In this document: in pieces, positions 2,912 to 51,196 of the stretch
Layout of the letters: each line of letters starts with the position of its first letter
Position numbering within the stretch: the stretch's first letter is position 1
NCBI RefSeq assembly: GCF_030540765.1
Contig: NZ_JAUOEL010000001.1
Span: 558,001 to 622,000, forward strand
Direction of reading: 5' to 3'
From: Flavivirga jejuensis
GTDB lineage: Bacteria > Bacteroidota > Bacteroidia > Flavobacteriales > Flavobacteriaceae
DNA: 64,000 nucleotides
The notes under the pieces: model-generated
What the model was told of the DNA's origin: nothing
The model's input: the letters and a program-made list of their open reading frames with translations, nothing else
Database searches by the model: none
Position numbers and translations under genes: made by a program

Positions 2912-5900
2912 ATGAAAGACGCATTGTCACATATTATAATTCCAAAATATACTACCGAAAGTAATGTTTTGGTCTCAGAAATTAAACTGAGTTACCAGCT
3001 TTTTGGTAAAACTTTGGGTACAGCACCTATCGTTTTGGTGAATCATGCCTTAACAGGTAATAGTAATGTTGCGGGTGATGATGGGTGGTGGAAAGATCTG
3101 GTTGGTATCGATAAAGTAATAGATACTAATTTATATACTGTTTTAGCATTTAATATCCCTGGAAATGGTTTTGATGGTTTTGTAATTGATAACTATAAAG
3201 ATTTTGTTGCCAGAGATGTTGCCAAGCTGTTTCTAGCGGGGCTTAAAGCATTAAAGACCGATAGACTTTTTGCTATTATAGGAGGCTCTTTAGGCGGAGG
3301 TATTGCTTGGGAAATGGCTGTTATAGAGCCTGATGTTACAACCCATTTAATAGTTGTAGCAACGGATTGGAAATCGACAGATTGGCTAATTGCTAATTGC
3401 CAAATACAAGAACAGTTTCTGTTAAACTCAAAAGAACCCGTGCATGATGCCAGAATGCATGCTATGCTGTGTTACCGTACTCCAGAATCATTCAAAGAAC
3501 GTTTTCATCGTTCTAAAAATGAAGATCTAGAGATTTTTAATGTAGAAAGTTGGTTGCTACATCATGGTAAAAAATTGCAAGAAAGGTTTCAGTTGTCGGC
3601 TTATAAGTTGATGAATCAATTATTAAAAACAATTGATGTTACTAAAAATAGAGCAGACGATTTTAATATTTTAGAACGTATTGATGCTAATATTCATATT
3701 GTGGGGGTAGATTCCGATCTCTTTTTTACAGCAGAAGAAAACAGGCAAACCCATAAACAATTAGCGTTAACACATCCCAATGTAACCTACAATGAAATAC
3801 ATTCAGTACATGGGCATGATGCCTTTTTAATGGAATACGAACAATTAGAAAAAATTATAGAAGGCATTTTTGTGCCAGATTCTAAAAAAAGAAAAATGAA
3901 AGTATTAAAATTTGGAGGAAAGTCGTTAGCCAATGGTGATGGCTTAAATAAAGTGCTTTCCATTATTGAAAATAAGGTTAATAATGGAGAACGCATTACC
4001 GTAGTAGTTTCTGCAAGAGGAAACGCTACAGATGAGCTAGAAGACATTTTAAGTAAAGCTCTAAAAGGGGAGCCGTTTCAAGACGCATTAGAAGCTTTTA
4101 AAACATATCAAAAAGCACCATTAAATACCATAGATTTTTCTGAGCAGTTTTCAATTCTCGGGAAACTTTTTGAAGGTGTTAGTTTGTTACGAGATTGTAG
4201 CCAAAAAACGAAAGATGGCATTTTAGCACAAGGGGAATTATTGTCTAATAAATTGGTTGCAGAATTACTTAACCAACGTGGTATTAAAGCAAAAGCTACC
4301 GATGCGAGAACATTAATTAAAACAGATGATGCCTTTGGGAATGCACAGCCTATTTCGCAATTAACTAAAGATAATGTTAGAAATTATTTTAAACAAAATA
4401 ATGGCGACACCGTTAATATTGTTACAGGGTTTATAGCTTCAAATGAAAAAAATGAGACAACTACTTTAGGTAGAAATGGAAGTAATTATACAGCCGCTTT
4501 ATTAGCCAATTATTTGGATGCAGATGAGTTGCAAAATTATACCCACGTAAATGGAATCTATACAGCCAATCCTGATCTGGTTGCAGATGCACAAAAAATT
4601 AGAGAATTATCGTTTGGTGAAGCCAATGAGCTAGCTAATTTTGGAGCCACTGTTTTACATGCCAAAACCATTATTCCTTTAGTCGAAAAGAATATCAATC
4701 TGCGTATTTTAAACACCTTTAATTCTGATGATGAAGGGACACTTATCACAGCAAAACGTAGTTCTAAAGAAGTAACATCCTTATCGGTTTTAGATGATGT
4801 TGCCTTATTGAATTTAGAAGGACGTGGTTTGCTAGGTAAGGTTGGAGTAGATGCCAGAATTTTTAAGGCATTAAGTATTCATAATATTAATGTGAGTATT
4901 ATTTCCCAAGGATCTTCAGAAAGAGGTATTGGATTGATTATAAATGCAGAAGAAGCTACACAAGCAGTTATTGCATTAGAGCGTGAATTTGAAAATGATT
5001 TTTATTCGCAAGATGTTAATAAAATTGAAGTAGTTGATGATGTTTCTGTAATTTCAATCATTGGAATTGAATTAAGTTCGTTCCATAAACCATTTAATGC
5101 ATTGATAAAAAACCAGATCACGCCTTTACTGTTTAATAATACAGTTACAGGTAGAAATGTGAGTTTGGTAGTTAGAAAGAATCAATTGCACAAAGCCATG
5201 AATGTGATCCATGGTGAGGTTTTCGGAATTTCAAAAAAGATAAACATTGCCATTTTTGGACACGGTTTAGTTGGAGGTGCTTTAATAAACCAGATCTTAA
5301 AGTCTAAAGATGATATTGAAAAAAGAAAAGGCATTAACCTAAATGTATTTGCAATTGCTAATTCCAGAAAACTCCTTTTAAGTAAAAATGGTGTTGAAAA
5401 TAATTGGGAAGAAGCTATAGAGACGACGTCGCAAGAAAGTTCTATTCAAGATATTATTGATTTTGCAAAGGTGCATCATTTAGAAAATTTAATAGCGGTA
5501 GATAATACAGCAAGTTCAAATTTTTACACGAATTATATACCGTTGGTTGAAGCTGGTTTCGATTTAGTATCATCAAACAAAATAGCCAATACAATTTCAC
5601 ATGAGTTTTATACAGAGTTGCGTTCACAATTACACGAACATAACAAACAATATTTGTATGAGACTACGGTTGGTGCAGGTTTACCATTAATAGATACGAT
5701 CAAGCTATTACATGAATCTGGAGAAAATATTACGAGAATACGAGGTGTTTTTTCAGGAACATTGAGTTATTTGTTTAATAATTTTTCAGTTGAAGATAAA
5801 CCGTTTAGTGAGATCATTCAGGAAACTATTGATAAAGGTTTTACAGAACCAGACCCAAGAGAAGATTTTTCTGGAAATGATGTTGCTAGAAAACTATTGA

Positions 5901-6313
5901 TTTTAGCTAGAGAATTAGATCTGCAAAATGAATTTGAAGATGTAGCGGTTCAGAATTTAATTCCAGAAGCTTATCAGAATATTTCAGTTCAAGAATTTTT
6001 AAGTCAGTTGGATGTTTTAGATGATGAATTTCAAAAGATAAAAGATGAGCAAAAAGAAGGCCATGTATTAAGATATATTGGTGATTTATCAGGAGATTTA
6101 TCTCAAGATAAGGGGAACCTTGATGTGAAATTGGTCTCAATTCCAGAAGATAGTACTTTGGGACATATAAAAGGATCGGATGCTATTTTTGAGATTTTCA
6201 CAGAATCTTATGGAGAACAACCCATCGTTATTCAAGGAGCAGGAGCAGGAGCAGAAGTAACAGCAAGAGGTGTTTTTGGAGATATTTTGAGGCTGTCTAA
6301 ACATATAAATTAA
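2912..6313 (+). CDS. Fusion: homoserine O-acetyltransferase (MetX-like) + aspartokinase/homoserine dehydrogenase
   Basis: One 1133-residue ORF with three enzyme modules. Residues ~1-325 are an alpha/beta hydrolase like MetX: nucleophile S126 in GGSLGGG, Asp269 in VDSDLFF, His302 in GHDAFL. A linker (DSKKRK) leads to the aspartokinase module starting MKVLKFGGKS at residue 329. ACT regulatory segments follow (SIHNINVSIISQGSSERG). Homoserine dehydrogenase starts near 775 with Rossmann motif IFGHGLVGG; it has ETTVGAGLPLI, the SGTLSY signature and GFTEPDPREDFSGNDVARK. The protein would catalyse aspartate to aspartyl phosphate, aspartate semialdehyde to homoserine, and homoserine to O-acetylhomoserine; aspartate-semialdehyde dehydrogenase is not included. 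ThrA/MetL alone is ~815 residues. There is no stop or frameshift at the junction. Acetyl rather than succinyl donor is inferred from MetX similarity and the MetY neighbour. Confidence 0.92.
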   Translation: MKDALSHIIIPKYTTESNVLVSEIKLSYQLFGKTLGTAPIVLVNHALTGNSNVAGDDGWWKDLVGIDKVIDTNLYTVLAFNIPGNGFDGFVIDNYKDFVARDVAKLFLAGLKALKTDRLFAIIGGSLGGGIAWEMAVIEPDVTTHLIVVATDWKSTDWLIANCQIQEQFLLNSKEPVHDARMHAMLCYRTPESFKERFHRSKNEDLEIFNVESWLLHHGKKLQERFQLSAYKLMNQLLKTIDVTKNRADDFNILERIDANIHIVGVDSDLFFTAEENRQTHKQLALTHPNVTYNEIHSVHGHDAFLMEYEQLEKIIEGIFVPDSKKRKMKVLKFGGKSLANGDGLNKVLSIIENKVNNGERITVVVSARGNATDELEDILSKALKGEPFQDALEAFKTYQKAPLNTIDFSEQFSILGKLFEGVSLLRDCSQKTKDGILAQGELLSNKLVAELLNQRGIKAKATDARTLIKTDDAFGNAQPISQLTKDNVRNYFKQNNGDTVNIVTGFIASNEKNETTTLGRNGSNYTAALLANYLDADELQNYTHVNGIYTANPDLVADAQKIRELSFGEANELANFGATVLHAKTIIPLVEKNINLRILNTFNSDDEGTLITAKRSSKEVTSLSVLDDVALLNLEGRGLLGKVGVDARIFKALSIHNINVSIISQGSSERGIGLIINAEEATQAVIALEREFENDFYSQDVNKIEVVDDVSVISIIGIELSSFHKPFNALIKNQITPLLFNNTVTGRNVSLVVRKNQLHKAMNVIHGEVFGISKKINIAIFGHGLVGGALINQILKSKDDIEKRKGINLNVFAIANSRKLLLSKNGVENNWEEAIETTSQESSIQDIIDFAKVHHLENLIAVDNTASSNFYTNYIPLVEAGFDLVSSNKIANTISHEFYTELRSQLHEHNKQYLYETTVGAGLPLIDTIKLLHESGENITRIRGVFSGTLSYLFNNFSVEDKPFSEIIQETIDKGFTEPDPREDFSGNDVARKLLILARELDLQNEFEDVAVQNLIPEAYQNISVQEFLSQLDVLDDEFQKIKDEQKEGHVLRYIGDLSGDLSQDKGNLDVKLVSIPEDSTLGHIKGSDAIFEIFTESYGEQPIVIQGAGAGAEVTARGVFGDILRLSKHIN

Positions 6314-35229: not shown

Positions 35230-35306
35230 TGCAATTTTTATCAATTTAATGTGGATAAAAAAAATATAGTTAGTACTTTTGCTCACTAGTTCATTAACGT
35301 ATTAAT

Positions 35307-35415
35307 GTTATCAAGAAAGGTAGAGGGAATAGACCCGTTGAAGCCTTGGCAACCCTTTAACTTTAAAGAAGGTGCTACGTTCTACTAATGTTTAAAAAAA
35401 TATTGGAAAGATAAC
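35307..35415 (+). promoter_or_regulatory. SAM-I riboswitch upstream of metH operon
   Basis: P1 GTTATC (35307-35312) / GATAAC (35410-35415); core AAGAAAGGTAGAGGGA, GAAGCCTTGGCAACC, GGTGCTACGTTC. A full -7 box TACTTTTG is at 35274-35281. A 7-bp hairpin GAAAAGT/ACTTTTC (35416-35438) starts directly at the end of P1, but no clear T run follows, so the switching mechanism is unsettled. It controls metH and metF. Confidence 0.93.
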
Positions 35416-35467
35416 GAAAAGTGTTTCTTTTACTTTTCTTGATGACATATAGATAAAAAATATCAAA

Positions 35468-36481
35468 ATGTCGAACATAAAACAAGCTTTACAAGACCGT
35501 ATTTTAGTACTAGATGGTGCTATGGGTACTATGTTGCAGGCCTATAAATTTACAGAAGAAGATTTTAGAGGCGATCGTTTTAAAGATTACCCAACGCCGT
35601 TGCAGGGTAATAACGATTTGCTGTCTATCACGCAGCCAAAAGCAATTAAAGAAATACACGCTAAGTATTTTGAAGTAGGTGCAGATATTGTAGAAACGAA
35701 TACGTTTTCTGGCACAACAATCGCCATGGCAGATTATCAAATGGAAGATTTAGTTTACGAACTTAATTACCAGTCTGCAAAAATAGCAAAGGAAGTAGCC
35801 GATGAATTTACAGCCAAAGAACCACATAAACCTCGTTTTGTAGCAGGATCCATTGGACCAACAAACCGTACAGCAAGTATGTCGCCAGATGTAAACGATC
35901 CTGGCTATAGGGCTGTAACGTTTGATGAATTACGGATAGCTTATAAGCAGCAAGTAGAAGCTTTAGTTGATGGTGGTTCAGATCTACTTTTAGTAGAAAC
36001 CGTTTTTGATACCCTGAATGCTAAAGCTGCATTATTTGCTATAGAAGAAGTTAAAGAAGCACGCAATATAGACATTCCTGTTATGCTTAGTGGCACAATT
36101 ACCGATGCGTCAGGGAGAACACTTTCTGGTCAAACAGCAGAAGCTTTTTTGATCTCAGTATCACATATTCCATTATTATCTGTTGGTTTTAATTGTGCTT
36201 TAGGAGCTAATTTATTGCAACCACATTTAGAAGCTATTGCTTCTAAAACAGATTTTGCAATTTCTGCCCATCCCAATGCTGGATTGCCAAATGCCTTTGG
36301 TGAGTATGATGAAACACCAGAAGAGATGGGAGAGCAAATAGAAGAATATTTAAAAAAGGATTTAATAAATATTATTGGAGGCTGTTGTGGTACAAGCCCA
36401 GAGCATATTAAAGTTATTGCAGATATAGCCGCTAAATATAAACCAAGACATCATTCTGAACTTGTTTCAGAATCACATTAA
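35468..36481 (+). CDS. metH: Methionine synthase, homocysteine-binding module (MetH N-terminal part)
   Basis: 337 residues corresponding to the first module of cobalamin-dependent MetH: RILVLDGAMGTMLQAYKFTEEDFRG, DIVETNTFSGTT. The zinc-binding cysteines are in GFNCALG and GGCCGTSPEH. The remaining modules are encoded by a separate gene at 36772, with an ABM-domain ORF between them, so the enzyme is split. The last 11 codons (RHHSELVSESH) come from an intergenic palindrome (ATTCTGAA/TTCAGAAT) and are not part of the family. First gene behind the second SAM riboswitch. Confidence 0.94.
   Translation: MSNIKQALQDRILVLDGAMGTMLQAYKFTEEDFRGDRFKDYPTPLQGNNDLLSITQPKAIKEIHAKYFEVGADIVETNTFSGTTIAMADYQMEDLVYELNYQSAKIAKEVADEFTAKEPHKPRFVAGSIGPTNRTASMSPDVNDPGYRAVTFDELRIAYKQQVEALVDGGSDLLLVETVFDTLNAKAALFAIEEVKEARNIDIPVMLSGTITDASGRTLSGQTAEAFLISVSHIPLLSVGFNCALGANLLQPHLEAIASKTDFAISAHPNAGLPNAFGEYDETPEEMGEQIEEYLKKDLINIIGGCCGTSPEHIKVIADIAAKYKPRHHSELVSESH
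36453..36473 (+). repeat. Dispersed palindrome forming the 3' end of metH-N
   Basis: ATTCTGAA (36453-36460) and TTCAGAAT (36466-36473) flank CTTGT. The encoded peptide HSELVSES is the usual read-through of this type of intergenic palindrome. Confidence 0.65.
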
Positions 36482-36490
36482 GTTAAAGTT

Positions 36491-36772
36491 ATGATACTCG
36501 AAGTTGCCATCTTAAATATTAAAAAAGGGCTTTCTGCAGATTTTGAAAAAGTTTTTCAAGAAGCGCAACGTATCATTTCCTCTATGAAGGGTTACATATC
36601 ACACGAATTAAAAAAGTGTGTTGAGCAAGAAGATAAATATATATTATTAGTGAATTGGGAGACGATTGAAGATCATGAGATCGGATTTAGAAAATCGAGT
36701 GAATATCAAAAATGGAAAGCATTATTACACCATTTTTATGAGCCATTTCCAATTGTAGAACATTATAAATAA
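36491..36772 (+). CDS. ABM-domain (antibiotic biosynthesis monooxygenase-like) protein
   Basis: 93 residues with the dimeric alpha/beta barrel pattern of ABM proteins: [29 protein letters not shown] then [32 protein letters not shown] and [15 protein letters not shown]. Such proteins act as small oxygenases, haem-degrading enzymes or unknown dimeric factors; no specific substrate can be named. It lies inside the split methionine synthase operon, 9 nt after metH-N, and its stop codon overlaps the metH-C start by one base (TAATG), indicating coupled translation. Confidence 0.9.
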
Positions 36773-39447
36773 TGAAAGCTAACCAAACAAAATATATGAG
36801 ACTTTCAGGATTAGAACCACTAATCCTAAACGAAAACAGCAATTTTATCAATGTTGGTGAACGTACCAATGTTGCTGGTTCTCGTAAGTTCTTAAGATTA
36901 ATAAAAGAAGAAAAATTTGATGAGGCCTTAGATATAGCACGACATCAAGTAGACGGAGGTGCGCAAATAATAGATATCAATATGGACGACGGTCTTATTG
37001 ATGGTAAAGAATCGATGGTTCGTTTCTTAAATTTAATTGCAGCCGAACCAGATATTTGCCGTGTGCCTATTATGATAGATAGTTCTAAATGGGAAATTAT
37101 TGAGGCAGGACTTCAAGTCGTGCAAGGTAAATGTGTCGTAAATTCTATTTCCTTAAAAGAAGGCGAAGAAAAGTTTATTTGGGAAGCAAAGCAGGTTAAA
37201 CGATACGGAGCAGCTGTTATTGTGATGGCTTTTGATGAGGTTGGACAAGCAGATAATTACGAAAGACGTATCGAAATAGCAGAACGCTCATACCGTGTTT
37301 TAGTTGATAAAGTAGGATTTCCATCAGAAGATATAATTTTCGATCTAAATATATTCCCTGTAGCAACAGGTATGGAAGAACACCGCAAAAATGCGATCGA
37401 TTTTATTGAAGCCACACGTTGGGTACGGGAAAATCTGCCAAATGTGAGTGTTAGTGGTGGTGTGAGTAATGTGTCGTTTTCATTTAGAGGAAATGATAGG
37501 GTTCGTGAAGCGATGCACTCGGTGTTTTTATACTATGCCATTCAAGCAGGGATGAATATGGGGATTGTAAACCCAGCACTTTTAGAGGTGTATGATGACA
37601 TTCCTAAAGACTTGTTAGAACATGTAGAAGACGTTATTTTAGATAGAAGAGACGATGCTACCGAACGATTATTGGATTTCGCCGAAACAGTTAAAGGTTC
37701 TAAAAAAGAAAAAACTGTTGACTTGTCATGGAGAGAAAATTCACTTCAAGAGCGTATAACTCATGCGCTTGTAAAAGGAATTGATGCATACATTATTGAA
37801 GATGTAGAACAAGCAAGACAGGAAGCTAAAAAACCAATTGAGGTTATTGAGGGGCATTTAATGATTGGAATGAATGTGGTTGGTGATTTATTTGGTGCTG
37901 GTAAAATGTTTCTACCCCAAGTAGTAAAATCAGCAAGGGTTATGAAAAAGGCGGTTGGTTATTTAAACCCTTTTATTGAAGCCGAAAAAGGTGAAAAACA
38001 AGAAGCTTTAGGTAAGGTGTTAATGGCTACCGTAAAAGGCGATGTACATGATATTGGTAAAAATATTGTGAGTGTTGTTTTAGGGTGTAATAACTACGAA
38101 ATTGTTGATCTAGGGGTTATGGTGCCACCTGAAAAAGTTATTTCAGAAGCCAAAGAACATAACGTAGATGCCATTGGTTTGTCTGGTTTAATTACGCCAT
38201 CTTTAGACGAAATGGTGTATCTGGCTAAAGAAATGGAGCGTCAAAATTTTTCTGTGCCTTTGCTTATTGGTGGAGCAACAACATCGAAAGCGCATACCGC
38301 AGTGAAAATTGATCCTCAGTATAAAAATGCTGTAGTTCACGTTAATGACGCTTCCAGAGCGGTGACAGTCGTTGGAGATTTATTAAATAAAAAGACCTCT
38401 AATGAGTATGTAGCAAAACTTAAAAAAGATTACGATGAATTTCGTGAGAAGTTTTTAAAACGAGGTAAAGAGAAATCATATATTTCGATAGCAGAAGCGC
38501 GTCGTAAAAAATATACTATAGATTGGGAAACATCAGACATTGTAAAACCTAATGAATTAGGAATTCAAAGATTAAAACAATTAAGCTTGAAAGAGTTGTT
38601 ACCCTTTATAGATTGGAAACCTTTCTTTATTTCGTGGGATTTGCATGGTAAATTCCCAGAGATATTAACAGATGATGTTGTGGGAGAACAAGCAACACAA
38701 TTGTATGAGGATGCCCAAGAAATGATTAAACAAATTATTGCGAAACAGTTATTAAAACCAAAAGGAGTCTTTGGTTTATTTGAGGCTAATACTATAAATG
38801 AAGATGACATTTCTATTCAGAAAAAAGGAAATGAGATTGCTGTGTTTAGGACGTTACGTCAACAATTAAAGAAAAGAGATGGCATTCCAAATATTGCTTT
38901 GTCTGATTTTATAGCGCCAAAAGAAACAGGTAAAACCGATTATATGGGGGCATTCTGTGTGGGTATTTTTGGAGCGCAAGAACTAGCAACTTTTTACAAG
39001 GACAAAGAAGATGATTATAACTCGATAATGGCACAAGCCATTGCAGATAGATTTGCTGAAGCGTTTGCAGAATACTTACACAAGCAAGTGAGAATGAAGC
39101 ACTGGGGGTATGCGGCAGATGAAGATTTATCTAATGAAGATTTAATAAAAGAAACCTATAAAGGGATTCGTCCAGCACCTGGTTACCCAGCATGTCCAGA
39201 TCATTTAGAGAAAGAGACCATTTGGGAGTTGTTGGATGTAGAAGAGTTAATAGGAGTTACCCTTACTGAAAGTTTAGCCATGTGGCCAGCAGCTGCAGTA
39301 TCAGGATATTATTTTGGAAATCCAGAAGCAAAATATTTTGGCTTAGGTAAAATTACTGATGACCAAGTCACTGATTATGCCACTAGAAAAGGCATTGGAA
39401 AAGATAAAGCTAGAAAGTGGTTGCATCCTAATTTGGCAGAGGAGTAA
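36772..39447 (+). CDS. metH: Methionine synthase, folate/cobalamin/activation modules (MetH C-terminal part)
   Basis: 891 residues. Pterin-binding module (~20-290: [40 protein letters not shown]), cobalamin module with the cap and H426 ligand motif [12 protein letters not shown], and SAM-binding activation domain (~560-890, [36 protein letters not shown]). It transfers methyl from methyl-THF through B12 to homocysteine, which must be bound by the separate metH-N product. MetH is a single ~1200-residue chain in many bacteria; the split falls between homocysteine and pterin modules. The start overlaps the ABM gene stop. Confidence 0.95.
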
Positions 39448-45934: not shown

Positions 45935-46831
45935 TTATTTTGATGTTAAATCTCTAAAAAGAGATTCTAAACTTGCATTTTTTTGATTGAGTTGTAAAAT
46001 TTTCAATTGATTATCATGAGCAAAATCAAATACACAGGATCTCATGTCTTCTGAGGTTTTAAAAGTGATCTCATAAACAAAACCATGTGTATTGTTTACG
46101 TTTTTTGCTTTTGGAAGTTTTAATAAAAAAGCATCTTCAACACGATAATCAAATTCTACAATAACAATCTGTTCTTTCTCATCTCTTAGTTCACTTAGTT
46201 TTTTATCTGCAACAATCTCACCTTTATTAATTATGACCACACGATCGCACATGGCTTCAACTTCTTGCATAATATGTGTGGATAGAAACACGGTTTTGGT
46301 TTCTCCAATCGTTTTTATAAGATTTCTAATGTCAACCAATTGGTTGGGGTCTAAGCCTGTGGTTGGTTCATCTAATATTAAAACCTCAGGATCATGTAAT
46401 AAAGCATTCGCTAAACCTACACGTTGGCGATACCCTTTAGAGAGTTGTCTTATCTTTTTATGAGCCTCTGGAGTTAAGCCAGTAAGTTCTATAACATCAT
46501 TAATACGTTGTTTGGAGACCTTGTATATAGTTGCGTTAAAGTTTAAATATTCTTTAACGAACATTTCTAAATATAAAGGATTATGTTCGGGTAAATACCC
46601 AACATTTCGTTGCACAAATTGTGTGTTTTCTTTTATATCATGTTCGTTTACCTTAGCAGTACCTTCACTCGGGTTAATATAAGTCGTTAAGATTTTCATC
46701 ATGGTAGATTTCCCCGCACCATTAGGTCCTAAAAATCCAACAATCTCTGGTTTGTTAACTTTAAAGGATATATTGTTTAAAGCTTTTTGTTTACCATAGT
46801 ATTTTGAAACCCCTATTACTTCAATAGACAT
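45935..46831 (-). CDS. gldA: Gliding-motility ABC transporter ATP-binding protein GldA
   Basis: 298 residues. ABC ATPase: Walker A LGPNGAGKSTMMKIL, signature LSKGYRQRVGLANALLHDP, Walker B LILDEPTTGLDPNQ, switch His in STHIMQEVEAMCDRV. The N-terminus (MSIEVIGVSKYYGKQKALNNISF) and YINPSEGTAKVNEHD, YLPEHNPLYLEMFVKEYL are typical of GldA, which works with membrane proteins GldF and GldG in gliding and T9SS-related functions in flavobacteria. gldF and gldG are not adjacent here. A general GldA-like ABC exporter ATPase is the alternative. Confidence 0.88.
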   Translation of the reverse strand: MSIEVIGVSKYYGKQKALNNISFKVNKPEIVGFLGPNGAGKSTMMKILTTYINPSEGTAKVNEHDIKENTQFVQRNVGYLPEHNPLYLEMFVKEYLNFNATIYKVSKQRINDVIELTGLTPEAHKKIRQLSKGYRQRVGLANALLHDPEVLILDEPTTGLDPNQLVDIRNLIKTIGETKTVFLSTHIMQEVEAMCDRVVIINKGEIVADKKLSELRDEKEQIVIVEFDYRVEDAFLLKLPKAKNVNNTHGFVYEITFKTSEDMRSCVFDFAHDNQLKILQLNQKNASLESLFRDLTSK

Positions 46832-46936: not shown

Positions 46937-46966
46937 TTTGATTTCTTAAAATATTATTTACTTTAG
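46937..46966 (+). promoter_or_regulatory. Promoter of the Phe/Tyr operon leader
   Basis: -33 TTTG (46937-46940), 18-nt spacer, -7 TACTTTAG (46959-46966, one mismatch to consensus). Transcription would begin a few nucleotides before the leader-peptide ATG at 46977. Confidence 0.6.
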
Positions 46967-46976
46967 CCTCATAATT

Positions 46977-47060
46977 ATGAAAACAACAGTATTTTTTACA
47001 TATTTCAACAATTGGTTTTATTTCTTTTTTAGCAAAAGGAACGAGATGTTGTATATGTAA
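46977..47060 (+). CDS. Phe/Tyr-rich leader peptide of an attenuator
   Basis: ORF of 27 codons plus stop, too short for ordinary gene callers. Residues 6-18 (FFTYFNNWFYFFF) contain seven Phe, two Tyr and one Trp in 13 codons. It begins ~10 nt after the -7 box and is followed 25 nt after its stop by an intrinsic terminator, then by prephenate dehydratase. This is the arrangement of classic transcription-attenuation leader peptides (pheL/pheST type). Ribosome stalling on uncharged tRNA-Phe would leave 47042-47047 free to pair with 47087-47092 and block the terminator. Confidence 0.82.
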   Translation: MKTTVFFTYFNNWFYFFFSKRNEMLYM

Positions 47061-47085
47061 TTTATAGATATAAATTTAAAATATG

Positions 47086-47114
47086 AGTCTCGATGAAAAT
47101 CGGGACTTTTTTTT
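47086..47114 (+). terminator. Attenuator terminator of Phe/Tyr operon
   Basis: AGTCTCGAT (47086-47094), loop GAAA, ATCGGGACT (47099-47107), then a run of T to 47114. It lies between the leader peptide and pheA, not at a gene end. The alternative pairing is CGAGAT (47042-47047) with the TCTCG part of the 5' arm. Confidence 0.85.
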
Positions 47115-47177
47115 GTTTAACTTTTAATTAATCAACCTCAATTAAAGATTGGAGGCTTATAAAATAAAACTAAGATT

Positions 47178-48005
47178 TTGATTAAAACAGTAGCCATACA
47201 AGGAGTAAAAGGATCTTTCCATCATATTGTGTCACAGCAGTTTTTTGATAAGCCCGTAGGTGTTATTGAGTGTTTAACATTCGATAAGGTAGTCGATTCT
47301 TTAATTACAAAAGAATGTGATGCTGCTATTATGGCCTTAGAAAATTCTATAGTAGGATCCATCATTCCTAATTATGCTTTAATCGATGCATATGGTTTAC
47401 ATATTGTTGGTGAGCATTATTTGGATATTCAGCATAATTTAATGGCAATGCCAGGGCAAAGTATAGAAGCTATTGAAGAAGTGTATTCGCACCCTATGGC
47501 ATTGTTGCAGTGTAAAGAGTTTTTTAAGCAATACCCTCATATTAAATTAGTAGAAGATAAGGATACTGCCGAGGTTGCTGAACGAATACATGAAAAAAAA
47601 CTTAAGGGAATAGGTGCTATTGCAAGTGTTATGGCGGCAGATATATTTGAGTTAGATATTCTGGCATCTAGTATTCAAACTATAGAGCATAATGAAACAC
47701 GATTCGTTATTGTAAAACGAACAAATTCTGAAGTTTCAGAAAATGAGATCAATAAAGCGTCTGTTAAGTTTGAAAGCGACCATAAACGAGGCAGCTTGGC
47801 TGCAATCCTTAATGTAATGAGCGATTGTAAATTGAATTTAACAAAAATTCAATCACTACCCATAGCCGAGACACCTTGGAAATATGCTTTTTTTGTTGAT
47901 GTTACTTTTGAAAAGTATATAGATTTTAAAAAAGCAAAAGCTATCATCGATATTATGGGAGAAGGATTTAAAGTGTTGGGAGAATATAAAAGAGCTAAGT
48001 TATGA
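47178..48005 (+). CDS. pheA: Prephenate dehydratase
   Basis: 275 residues starting at TTG 47178 (no in-frame ATG before the conserved start VAIQGVKGSFHH). Catalytic domain ~1-180: GSFHHIVSQQFF, ALENSIVGSIIPNY, HNLMAMPGQ, VYSHPMALLQCKEFF, and the TRF triplet in HNETRFVIVKR. ACT regulatory domain ~190-275 (RGSLAAILNVMSDCKLNLTKIQSLPI), the expected Phe-feedback site. No chorismate mutase domain; that activity is in the DAHP synthase fusion at the end of the operon. It is the first gene after the attenuator and overlaps the aminotransferase by 4 nt. Confidence 0.94.
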   Translation: MIKTVAIQGVKGSFHHIVSQQFFDKPVGVIECLTFDKVVDSLITKECDAAIMALENSIVGSIIPNYALIDAYGLHIVGEHYLDIQHNLMAMPGQSIEAIEEVYSHPMALLQCKEFFKQYPHIKLVEDKDTAEVAERIHEKKLKGIGAIASVMAADIFELDILASSIQTIEHNETRFVIVKRTNSEVSENEINKASVKFESDHKRGSLAAILNVMSDCKLNLTKIQSLPIAETPWKYAFFVDVTFEKYIDFKKAKAIIDIMGEGFKVLGEYKRAKL

Positions 48006-49147
48006 TTGAAGCAGCAAATAGATTACAAACAGTAGAAGAATATTACTTTTCAAAAAAATTAAGAGAAGTAAGTTTACTTATAGCTAGTGGAAAACCGATT
48101 ATTAACTTAGGTATTGGTAGTCCAGATTTACAACCGCCGCAAAGAGTTGTTGAGGCAATAAAAGAAGGCTTATTAGATCCTAGTGCGCATAAATATCAAA
48201 GTTACCAAGGCTTACCAGAATTAAGAGAAGCCATAACGGGATTTTATAAAACTCATTTTTCGGTGTCTTTAAGTTCTTCTACAGAGGTGTTGCCACTCAT
48301 GGGAAGTAAAGAAGGTATCATGCATATTTCGATGGCATATTTAAATGAAGGTGATGCTGTGTTAATCCCAAATCCAGGATATCCAACATATCAATCTGTT
48401 ACGAAATTAGTAGGGGCAACACCTGTTTTTTACGAATTGGATGAAGCAAATAATTGGTTGCCAGATTTTAATGCTTTGGAACAATTAGATTTAAGCAAAG
48501 TGAAATTGATGTGGGTTAATTATCCGCATATGCCAACAGGAGCGAAATCTAATACTCATTTATTTGAAAAATTAGTAGCATTTGGCAAGCGTCATAATAT
48601 TTTAATAGTTAACGATAATCCGTATAGTTTTATACTAAATGATGATCCAAAAAGTATTTTAAGTGTTGCTGGAGCAAAAGATGTTTGTTTAGAGCTTAAT
48701 TCATTAAGTAAGACGTTTAATATGGCTGGATGGCGTGTAGGGATGGTCGTTGGAGACAGTAAGCATATAAACAATATTTTAAAGGTGAAGAGTAATATGG
48801 ACTCTGGTATGTTTTATGGCATTCAAAAAGGAGCTATTGAAGCTTTAAAATGCTCTGAGATGTGGTTTGTTACTTTAAATAGTGTGTATGCACGACGTCG
48901 CGATTTAGTTTGGCAATTAGCAGACGCTTTAAATTGTACGTATGACAAAAATGCCATGGGACTTTTTGTTTGGGCTAAACTACCAGGCGATTTAAAAGCT
49001 GAAGCGTATATAGACTCAGTGCTTAAAAATAATCACATATTTATTACTCCAGGAACCATTTTTGGAAGTAAAGGAGAAGGCTATATTCGATTTTCTTTAT
49101 GTGCATCAAACGAAGTATTAGAAGAAGCTATAAAAAGAATTAAATAA
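48002..49147 (+). CDS. PLP-dependent aminotransferase (aromatic/aspartate type)
   Basis: 381 residues, class I/II aminotransferase. Motifs: INLGIGSPDLQPPQRVVEAI, YQSYQGLPELREAITGFY, NPGYPTYQSV, NDNPYSFI, PLP lysine K237 in ELNSLSKTFNMAGWRVGM, and RFSLCASNE carrying the carboxylate-binding Arg. It overlaps pheA by 4 nt and lies before tyrA, so transamination of phenylpyruvate and 4-hydroxyphenylpyruvate (or prephenate) is the probable job. Family members also act on methionine or aspartate; specificity is not readable from sequence. Confidence 0.92.
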   Translation: MIEAANRLQTVEEYYFSKKLREVSLLIASGKPIINLGIGSPDLQPPQRVVEAIKEGLLDPSAHKYQSYQGLPELREAITGFYKTHFSVSLSSSTEVLPLMGSKEGIMHISMAYLNEGDAVLIPNPGYPTYQSVTKLVGATPVFYELDEANNWLPDFNALEQLDLSKVKLMWVNYPHMPTGAKSNTHLFEKLVAFGKRHNILIVNDNPYSFILNDDPKSILSVAGAKDVCLELNSLSKTFNMAGWRVGMVVGDSKHINNILKVKSNMDSGMFYGIQKGAIEALKCSEMWFVTLNSVYARRRDLVWQLADALNCTYDKNAMGLFVWAKLPGDLKAEAYIDSVLKNNHIFITPGTIFGSKGEGYIRFSLCASNEVLEEAIKRIK

Positions 49148-49218: not shown

Positions 49219-49241
49219 ATGTCTCAAAAAGAGAGATGGGA

Positions 49242-50093
49242 ATGAAAAATATTTACATTATAGGTGTTGGGTTAATAGGTGGAAGTCTTGCTCTCGATAT
49301 TAAAAAAAATAAGCCAGAAGTTGTTATTCATGGTATTAGCAGAAAAGAAACAACGCTTGATGAAGCTTTGTCTCTTAAACTAATTGATAAAAAAGCAACC
49401 CTAGATGATATTAATAAAGCCGATTTAGTTATTATATCTATTCCTGTAGATGCTACAGTAAAGTTGTTGCCAACGGTATTAGATAAAATATCCGATTCAG
49501 GATTGGTTGTAGATGCGGGATCTACTAAAAAGGACATATGCAAGATTGTTGAAGCGCATCCTAAACGTAGAAATTTTTTAGCAATGCATCCTATTGCTGG
49601 AACCGAACATTCGGGACCTAGTGCAGCAATTAGCGGCTTGTTTGAAGGGAAGACAAATATTGTATGCGAAGTTGAAAAAACAGCATTTAAACTTCAAGAA
49701 AAAGCCTTAAAACTTTTTGTAGATATAGGCATGCGAATTCGTTATATGAACCCAGAGGCTCATGATAAACACATAGCGTATATGTCTCATTTATCGCATA
49801 TAAGTTCATTTATGTTAGGTAAAACGGTTATTGAAAAAGAAAAAAATGAGCGTGATATTTTTGATATGGCAGGCAGTGGATTCGCTTCTACAGTCCGTCT
49901 GGCAAAAAGTTCCCCAGAAATGTGGACACCCATTTTTGAACAAAACAAAGAAAATGTTATTGAAACCTTAAAAGAATACATCAATAATCTAAATCAATTT
50001 AAAGATCTTATGGAAAAAGATGATTTTGAGGCAGTTTACAATGAAATGAAAAACACGAATCATATAAAACAAATTTTAAACGGAATAGCCTAA
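49242..50093 (+). CDS. tyrA: Prephenate dehydrogenase
   Basis: 283 residues from ATG 49242; an ATG at 49236 two codons upstream lies in the repeat and is an alternative. Rossmann motif IYIIGVGLIGGSLALDI; VISIPVDATVKLLP; VDAGSTKKDI; AMHPIAGTEHSGPSAA carries the catalytic His region; YMSHLSHISSFMLG. It oxidises prephenate to 4-hydroxyphenylpyruvate with NAD(P). It has no ACT or chorismate mutase domain. Third gene of the attenuator-controlled operon. Confidence 0.94.
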   Translation: MKNIYIIGVGLIGGSLALDIKKNKPEVVIHGISRKETTLDEALSLKLIDKKATLDDINKADLVIISIPVDATVKLLPTVLDKISDSGLVVDAGSTKKDICKIVEAHPKRRNFLAMHPIAGTEHSGPSAAISGLFEGKTNIVCEVEKTAFKLQEKALKLFVDIGMRIRYMNPEAHDKHIAYMSHLSHISSFMLGKTVIEKEKNERDIFDMAGSGFASTVRLAKSSPEMWTPIFEQNKENVIETLKEYINNLNQFKDLMEKDDFEAVYNEMKNTNHIKQILNGIA

Positions 50094-50113: not shown

Positions 50114-51196
50114 ATGGAGAATAAAAAAGAAATGAGAAACTGGTTGGATGCATTAAACTTAGATCATCCTTTGGTTATTGCAGGACCTTGTAGTGCTGAA
50201 ACAGAAGAGCAAGTATTAAAAATTGCACATGAGTTAAAAGATACCGATGTTAGTTATTTTAGAGCAGGTATTTGGAAACCAAGAACAAGACCAGGAATGT
50301 TTGAAGGTGTTGGTGCATTAGGCTTAAAGTGGCTACAAAAAGTAAAAGCAGAAACTGGAATGAAAATCTGTACCGAAGTAGCTAATGCTGCTCATGTAAA
50401 ATTAGCATTAGAGCATGATGTAGATTTATTATGGATTGGTGCACGTTCTACAGTAAGCCCATTTATAATGCAAGAAATTGCAGATGCTTTAGAAGGAACG
50501 GATAAGCCTGTATTGATTAAAAACCCTGTAAATCCTGATTTGTCATTATGGTTAGGAGGTATTGAAAGAATATATAAATCTGGTGTAAAAAATATTGGCG
50601 CTATTCATAGAGGCTTTTCAACATACCAAAAGACCAAATATAGAAATATTCCAGAGTGGCAATTAGCTATCGAATTTCAGAATAGATTCCCTGATATTCC
50701 ATTAATTAATGATCCATCTCATATTACTGGTAATAGAGAGATGATTTTTGATGTGTCTCAAACGGCTTTAGATTTAAATTTTGATGGATTAATGATTGAA
50801 ACACATTATGATCCTGAGAATGCATGGAGTGATGCAGCACAACAAGTAACGCCATCTACATTGGTGCAGATTATGAAAAATTTAAAAATTAGAAAAGAAA
50901 CTAATGCTGAAGCTGAATACAATAGCGAACTTGATAATTTAAGAGCGCAAATTGATGTTGTAGATAATCAAATTATTAATTTGTTAGGACAACGTATGGA
51001 AGCAGCAGATGGTATTGGAGCACTTAAAAAAACAAAAAATGTAGCTGTATTACAATCTAAGCGTTGGAATGAGATTTTAGGGAAAATGGTTTTAGAAGGA
51101 CAAGATCATGGACTTAGTGAAGAGTTTATCTTAAAGATGTTTAAAGCCATTCACCAAGAATCTATCAATCATCAAGAAAAGATTATCAATGGTTAA
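50114..51196 (+). CDS. Bifunctional DAHP synthase / chorismate mutase
   Basis: 360 residues. Residues ~1-265: type I-beta 3-deoxy-7-phosphoheptulonate synthase (PLVIAGPCSAETEEQ, YFRAGIWKPRTRPGMFEGVG, LWIGARSTVSPF, VLIKNPVNPD, IHRGFSTYQKTKYRN, PLINDPSHITGNRE). Residues ~270-360: AroQ-type chorismate mutase (LDNLRAQIDVVDNQIINLLGQRMEAADGIGALKK). It condenses PEP and erythrose-4-P at the pathway entry and converts chorismate to prephenate at the branch. It supplies the mutase missing from pheA and tyrA in the same operon. A terminator follows. Confidence 0.95.
   Translation: MENKKEMRNWLDALNLDHPLVIAGPCSAETEEQVLKIAHELKDTDVSYFRAGIWKPRTRPGMFEGVGALGLKWLQKVKAETGMKICTEVANAAHVKLALEHDVDLLWIGARSTVSPFIMQEIADALEGTDKPVLIKNPVNPDLSLWLGGIERIYKSGVKNIGAIHRGFSTYQKTKYRNIPEWQLAIEFQNRFPDIPLINDPSHITGNREMIFDVSQTALDLNFDGLMIETHYDPENAWSDAAQQVTPSTLVQIMKNLKIRKETNAEAEYNSELDNLRAQIDVVDNQIINLLGQRMEAADGIGALKKTKNVAVLQSKRWNEILGKMVLEGQDHGLSEEFILKMFKAIHQESINHQEKIING

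Follow-up and report, generated by a model that had tools for sequence, protein, structure and literature searches.

A putative ribosome-mediated attenuator with a phenylalanine/tyrosine leader peptide is conserved upstream of pheA in Bacteroidia

Results

Organization of the pheA locus in Flavivirga jejuensis

The 64,000-nucleotide (64-kb) stretch of the F. jejuensis genome that was analyzed as a whole is referred to as the window. It contains a short leader located between the divergent gene gldA and an operon composed of pheA, an aminotransferase gene, tyrA and a gene for a fused DAHP synthase-chorismate mutase. The features of the locus are as follows:

45935-46831, reverse strand: gldA, the divergent upstream neighbour
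46937-46966, forward strand: promoter, with a -33 TTTG at 46937-46940 and a -7 box TACTTTAG at 46959-46966 (from the sequence)
46977-47060, forward strand: leader peptide ORF of 27 codons, with the control run in codons 6-18 at 46992-47030 (from the sequence and the codons of relatives)
46997-47010, forward strand: region 1, UACAUAU at 46997-47003 and CAACA at 47006-47010, within the first control codons (from the fold of the leader ORF and own versus swapped 1:2 duplexes)
47042-47059, forward strand: region 2, of which CGAGAU at 47042-47047 pairs with region 3, and 47047-47051 and 47053-47059 pair with region 1
47042-47092, forward strand: antiterminator, a long hairpin of regions 2 and 3 with an A+U-rich inner hairpin (minimum-energy fold of 47042-47098)
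47085-47114, forward strand: intrinsic terminator (regions 3 and 4), stem 47085-47094/47099-47108, U run to 47114
47178-48005, forward strand: pheA, prephenate dehydratase, TTG start (PF00800, 1.1e-53; NF008865, 5.2e-55, under its curated cut-off)
48002-49147, forward strand: class I/II aminotransferase (PF00155)
49236-50093, forward strand: tyrA, prephenate dehydrogenase (NF006307 above its cut-off; PF02153)
50114-51196, forward strand: DAHP synthase-chorismate mutase fusion (PF00793 and PF01817)

The ORF at 46977-47060 encodes the peptide MKTTVFFTYFNNWFYFFFSKRNEMLYM, in which 10 of the 13 codons 6-18 are aromatic (in order F, F, Y, F, W, F, Y, F, F and F). Such a density was reached by a single one of the 728 ATG ORFs of 10-60 codons on both strands of the window, the runner-up having 7 aromatic codons. 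The amino acids specified by this run match the products of pheA, the aminotransferase gene, tyrA and the DAHP synthase-chorismate mutase gene downstream. A first-pass annotation had listed the two promoter boxes, the 27-codon ORF, its 10 aromatic codons and a terminator, and all of them were recovered at the same positions.

Folding of the leader RNA revealed three alternative stems. The region 47085-47108 was the only terminator-like site between 46700 and 47500. The annotation had further claimed that CGAGAT at 47042-47047 can pair with the 5' arm of the terminator; the partner was located at 47087-47092 (GUCUCG), giving five Watson-Crick pairs and one U-G pair. Two elements absent from that annotation were added here, namely the long antiterminator and a 1:2 hairpin, in which 46997-47003 pairs with 47053-47059 and 47006-47010 with 47047-47051. 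When folded alone, the leader ORF adopts the 1:2 hairpin (-15.6 kcal/mol, z -2.2) and 47042-47098 adopts one continuous 2:3 hairpin (-11.5 kcal/mol, z -2.64), while addition of the 3' arm to the latter segment lets the terminator win (-15.9). Judged by sequence and folding only, the antiterminator excludes the terminator and the 1:2 hairpin excludes the antiterminator. Region 2 moreover overlaps the stop codon of the leader (47058-47060).

Distribution of the leader upstream of pheA

Two forms of a detector were applied to the regions upstream of pheA. The strict form demanded an ATG ORF of 10-45 codons in which a run of 12 codons contains 6 or more aromatic ones, a terminator within 85 nt and a helix, 6 pairs long or longer, that joins the 3' end of the ORF to the 5' arm of the terminator; the relaxed form dropped the helix. 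Strict matches were obtained in 193 of 238 upstream regions and in none of 474 dinucleotide shuffles (158 upstream regions, three shuffles each), and within the window at this place only. The relaxed form was positive in 204 of the 238 regions, which are not independent of each other because the named records L081-L160 overlap with L001-L040: several of their leaders are identical, and they look like the same genomes. By group, relaxed matches were found in 38/40 regions from the genus and family (L001-L040), 37/40 further regions from the family (L041-L080), all 80 named records (L081-L160; Flavivirga, Algibacter, Tamlana and others), 14/20 in the order draw, 17/20 and 12/20 in two class draws and 6/18 in the phylum draw, the last comprising 2/3 within and 4/15 outside the class. 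As a control, 28 metY upstream regions were scanned with the relaxed detector and yielded no match. On both strands of 40 pheA loci, 36 of its 38 distinct matches were the pheA leader and 2 were stray.

Leader and terminator were not found by the detector in 34 of the 238 regions, including 11 of the 15 outside the class. Among the regions without a detected leader were L172, L177 and L178, which belong to one family and whose pheA is only ~30% identical. The search for pheA itself gave a match in 12/12 genomes of the genus, 84/100 of the family, 69/118 of the order, 47/158 of the class and 172/198 of the phylum. As only 47 of the 158 class genomes had a match, the range of the leader is to be read as the range of this type of pheA. 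The upstream regions beyond the family (20, 20, 18 and 20) were picked non-randomly, for different families and good matches, and two 10-base placeholders (L215 and L216) were left out of all counts. According to the family labels of the sampled genomes, the relaxed-detector positives span 19 families of Bacteroidia and 4 outside.

In the family draw, 73 of the 78 inspected genomes (of 84 with pheA) were positive within 450 nt. The leader was located further upstream in L033, was identified by a covariance model at a contig edge in L027 and was seen by eye only in L071, and L064 and L074 were negative. The covariance model of the leader, R1, gave 39 matches in 38 of 60 family genomes, 37 of which had one match each, and 37 of the 39 matches adjoin pheA. 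One further match, in G058, follows a gldA-like flank at the end of a contig and is probably the same locus split across two contigs. A weak match in G014 stands upstream of a different gene and drew attention to the Met/Cys leaders described below.

Two aromatic leaders, MAYRSAYYFYFFCFFSSCRG and MNCMGYTYYYFFSLMDHRRLWVV, stand in tandem upstream of pheA in L190; a terminator comes after each, found by the detector for the first and by eye for the second.

Outside the class, L201-L204 carry an aromatic leader in front of a pheA that is 43-47% identical to that of the window. The other outside-class pheA among the matches listed have 29-38% identity, with one partial match at 43%. Gene and attenuator have perhaps moved together in L201-L204.

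The aromatic codons are bound to the leader frame

Across the 204 loci, the codons of the control run were aromatic in 78% (L001-L160) and 80% (L161-L240) of cases in the leader frame and in 19-33% in the other two frames, in which Tyr made up 0-7% and Trp 0-1.6% of codons. This restriction to one frame argues against the ORF as a mere by-product of U-richness. A plain terminator that blocks read-through or produces a short RNA, with the ORF as such a by-product, would fit a leader that is U-rich and whose terminator is strong and close to the 5' end of pheA. However, besides the frame bias, length differences in the aromatic run preserve the frame, the antiterminator pairing is kept across loci (see below) and the upstream neighbour gldA is divergent, so that we find this explanation hardly credible.

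Among the 124 leaders of L001-L080 and L161-L240, Tyr was present in all, at least three Phe in 122 and Trp in 72. The presence of Tyr throughout and of at least three Phe in nearly all leaders fits an operon for Phe and Tyr, and both amino acids are likely signals for the leader.

A TAnnTT[TA]G box was detected upstream of the leader ATG in 176 of the 204 loci. In F. psychrophilum, the -7 box occupies positions -12 to -5 according to passages of PMC9723704. Applied to the box ending at 46966, this rule places the start of transcription near 46971, six bases 5' of the AUG, which suggests a 5' UTR of ~6 nt. Of the 176 loci with a box, the 149 from Flavobacteriaceae have by the same rule a median 5' UTR of 7 nt and the other 27 one of 14 nt. 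Leaderless mRNAs are given as only 5.5% in F. psychrophilum (passages of PMC9723704).

Pairing of the alternative stems is maintained by matched changes

The first-pass annotation had proposed a comparison with related flavobacteria as a check. In this comparison the aromatic run, the terminator and the pairing of region 2 with the terminator arm recurred, and the letters of the arms changed while the pairing was kept. Two alignments were used: A1, with 71 of 149 distinct segments, and A2, with 22 of these segments. Across the 71 sequences, pairing in the terminator stem reached 97.2%, and 7 of its 9 pairs showed both-sided changes, 53 in all; each of these three measures was above all 500 shuffles. 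Among the 22 close relatives of A2, the 2:3 helix was 100% paired and near-invariant with no both-sided change, so that a column count proves nothing for this helix. Since MAFFT places region 2 one base apart in two sub-types of A1 and the register of the 1:2 helix varies among relatives, the duplex energies of a locus's own arms were compared with those of arms swapped between loci.

This comparison comprised 114 of the 204 loci, L002-L011 and L081-L160 being left out. For the 2:3 duplex, the own arms gave a mean of -12.1 kcal/mol versus -8.4 kcal/mol for swapped arms (sd 0.22), and none of 10,000 permutations was as low; the 49 distant loci taken alone gave -13.5 versus -9.0, again with no permutation as low. 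For the 1:2 duplex, the means were -19.1 kcal/mol (own) and -13.5 kcal/mol (swapped, sd 0.29), with 0 of 10,000 permutations as low, and the result likewise held for the 49 distant loci. Both antiterminator and 1:2 hairpin are hence conserved by compensatory change. Matched changes include CGAGAC/GUCUCG, CGGGAC/GUCCCG, AGGAUUGU/ACAAUCCU, GAGCGGUC/GACCGCUC and GAGAACUUC/GGAGUUCUC. The core of the window's own 2:3 helix is weak, with 6 pairs including one U-G and a duplex energy of -7.7 kcal/mol. The 2:3 pairs were present in the minimum-energy fold of 102 of 104 loci, the window included, which is no independent test because these loci (without L002-L011 and L081-L160) had been chosen by the strict detector, which demands the 2:3 helix.

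Geometry of the leader and proposed mechanism

In the classical attenuation scheme, a stalled ribosome masks region 1 and thereby frees region 2. After removal of identical segments, 177 of the 193 leaders were kept to determine the spacing. Counted from the first base of the final aromatic codon, the median distance to region 2 was 14 nt (interquartile range 12-14, 5-95% range 10-17), the low end of this spacing being bounded by the search range for region 2. Assuming that the ribosome reaches to +15 relative to the P site, a stall at the last aromatic codon would leave all of region 2 exposed in 120 leaders and hide part of it in 57, where stalls at earlier codons would expose it. A ribosome at the stop codon would cover region 2 at least partly in 168 of the 177. 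The window's leader has a spacing of 14 nt, and a ribosome at its stop codon would cover region 2. As the window's first control codons (6-10) overlap region 1, a stall there would mask region 1 and free region 2.

From these data we consider it very probable that the pheA leader controls transcription by classical ribosome-mediated attenuation, with charged tRNA-Phe and tRNA-Tyr as the signals sensed. Transcription would begin a few bases 5' of the leader AUG. When Phe or Tyr is scarce, a translating ribosome would stall in codons 6-18 and leave region 2 (from 47042-47047) unpaired, with a stall at the first control codons masking region 1 as well. The free region 2 would then pair with the terminator 5' arm at 47087-47092, allowing RNA polymerase to read into pheA, the aminotransferase gene, tyrA and the DAHP synthase-chorismate mutase gene. 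With both amino acids plentiful, the ribosome would reach the stop codon and cover region 2, and the terminator at 47085-47114 would form. Without translation of the leader, region 2 would be sequestered in the 1:2 hairpin and the terminator would form too. By this scheme, the bacterium probably turns its Phe/Tyr genes on only when ribosomes run short of these amino acids. The annotation had already proposed ribosome-mediated attenuation in a working geometry, a reading that gains support from the comparison with relatives.

An arrest peptide offers another way to read the same leader: the nascent chain would sense free Phe or Tyr instead of charged tRNA, for which TnaC provides the analogy. 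The C-terminal tail of the peptide (e.g. KRNEALYV) is indeed well kept in the window's relatives, but its overlap with the 1:2 and 2:3 pairings can account for this conservation. Tails moreover vary by lineage (KRGTGLL, DKSRD, SRECFC and others) while the pairing is kept, the leaders of L094, L105 and L108 end before the tail, and in 14 of the 177 leaders the stop codon starts 5' of region 2. We regard an arrest peptide as very improbable and retain ribosome-mediated attenuation as the preferred reading. On sequence grounds, the pheA leader is best described as a real and well-conserved attenuator of the classical type, as the first-pass annotation had identified it.

Relation to known leader RNAs

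At the pheA leader, no Rfam family was matched at its gathering score; three families matched at E up to 1, far below their gathering scores. A ligand-binding riboswitch, a T-box or a protein-dependent antiterminator would likewise appear as a structured 5' leader upstream of amino-acid genes, but against it stand these low Rfam scores and the fact that, by eye, A1 contains no aptamer-like conserved core beyond the ORF, the alternative stems and the promoter. We therefore attach next to no probability to it and continue with attenuation.

The family RF01859 (Phe_leader), which we take to be the enterobacterial pheL-pheA leader, gave no match at this place at its gathering score or at E up to 1. 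The enterobacterial leader and the one described here share Phe codons, alternative 1:2, 2:3 and 3:4 stems and a downstream pheA. Unlike the enterobacterial leader, the present one also contains Tyr codons, precedes an operon with tyrA and DAHP synthase and has a 5' UTR that appears to be ~6 nt long. Some attenuators are said to have been predicted in the Bacteroidetes/Chlorobi group, in 2004 by Vitreschak et al. From the same phylum, the Bacteroidete tryptophan peptide leader RNA Bacteroid-trp (RF01692) appears in the part of PMC2864571 consulted. The trp leader of the F. jejuensis genome matches this model (59.3 bits versus a gathering score of 49), whereas the pheA leader does not at the gathering score or at E up to 1; RF01692 is distinguished by its Trp codons and trp operon.

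For F. psychrophilum, structured 5' elements upstream of pheA and hisG, conserved in other genera of Flavobacteriaceae and without Rfam matches, were reported by Guerin et al. (2021) together with "strong clues" for leader-peptide attenuation upstream of amino-acid operons (passages of PMC9723704). The pheA element reported there concerns the same gene and the same family as the leader in the window, and the passages on it neither contain a leader sequence or an antiterminator nor state a range past the family. Leader-peptide-like ORFs have been described in B. thetaiotaomicron, with no pheA case in the accessible part of the text (PMC7366714), and leader ORFs in Bacteroidetes and other phyla have been interpreted as reinitiation sites, not attenuation (passages of PMC4833913). 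A search of the literature, with most subscription journals outside its reach, returned no description of the pheA leader sequence or of Met/Cys leaders at metY, and a phage collection searched with 46950-47120 gave no match. The annotation's claim of novelty is borne out only in part, given the pheA element and the attenuation clues in the passages of PMC9723704 and the trp leader RF01692. This kind of attenuator is already known, and the pheA element has already been flagged in a relative. New are the full anatomy, the range, the putative 6-nt 5' UTR and the company of his, trp, ilv and thr leaders in one genome; the findings of lasting value are the range, the complete anatomy and this company. 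The attenuator offers a detailed candidate mechanism for the unexplained pheA element of PMC9723704, and R1 can be used for annotation.

Leaders for other amino acids and the methionine loci

In the same genome, further leaders were identified upstream of hisG (MTFIQLHHHHFHICSQAN, L241, His-rich codons), a trpE-like gene (MNIILNNTWWWSFRNLRS, L242, Trp-rich codons) and ilvD (MKKQILNIVSISVIVIISQR, L244, Ile/Val-rich codons), each with a terminator seen by eye. A leader with Thr-rich codons precedes a thrA-like gene (MNHLNQNIDVRFSSLTEGTTTIFGTTTITTTLWGC, L247), with no clear terminator found downstream of it.

The first Met/Cys leader was encountered in L278. In 60 relatives of G014, 56 genomes had a metY match, and the best 30 of these 56 were analyzed. 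In this set, 17 loci had an upstream SAM-I riboswitch, and none of the 17 had a Met/Cys leader. Nine loci from 7 genera (L289-L292, L295, L304, L307, L312 and L316) had one or two Met/Cys leaders upstream of metY without an upstream SAM-I, one locus had SAM-II and three had neither, two of these with only 383 and 15 nt upstream. Among the best 30 of 56, Met/Cys leaders were thus found in 9 of 13 metY loci without SAM-I versus 0 of 17 with it. In 6 of the 9 loci two leaders follow each other, e.g. MNKNLNIMCRCMMCINYAGDTIV and then MNTIFNFLTFMMMCCMRMMCCYMIRYCQT in L289, and terminators come after the leaders, found by the detector or by eye. Pairings of region 2 with a terminator arm were seen in L289, L292 and L295, by eye only. 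In the metY upstream stretches of L319-L323, inspection by eye revealed no Met/Cys leader. The metY leaders look like Met/Cys attenuators, often in tandem, that would stand in for the riboswitch.

The phylum mostly lacks Shine-Dalgarno sites, and peptide-leader attenuation requires a ribosome that closely trails RNA polymerase. Considering the putatively very short 5' UTRs, the genome with Phe/Tyr, His, Trp, Ile/Val and Thr leaders and the apparent replacement of SAM-I by Met/Cys leaders, often two in a row, at metY in several lineages, we lean towards the view that ribosome-mediated attenuation may be a general, old and modular layer of control in Bacteroidia. If true, this would imply that, in this phylum, transcription and translation are closely coupled right from the beginning of a transcript, and that evolution has exchanged riboswitch and peptide attenuator for one another. 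With the pheA leader present in 19 families of Bacteroidia, both this coupling and initiation on very short 5' UTRs can be tested directly.

The window's own metY (1620-2894) has a SAM-I riboswitch upstream. Downstream of this metY and its SAM-I follows an ORF of 1133 amino acids (2912-6313, PF00742), which looks like a homoserine acetyltransferase fused to an aspartokinase-homoserine dehydrogenase, the other domains being assigned by eye. A second SAM-I riboswitch is located within 35305-39447, upstream of the ORFs 35468-36481 and 36772-39447, which, named by eye, look like a methionine synthase split in two.
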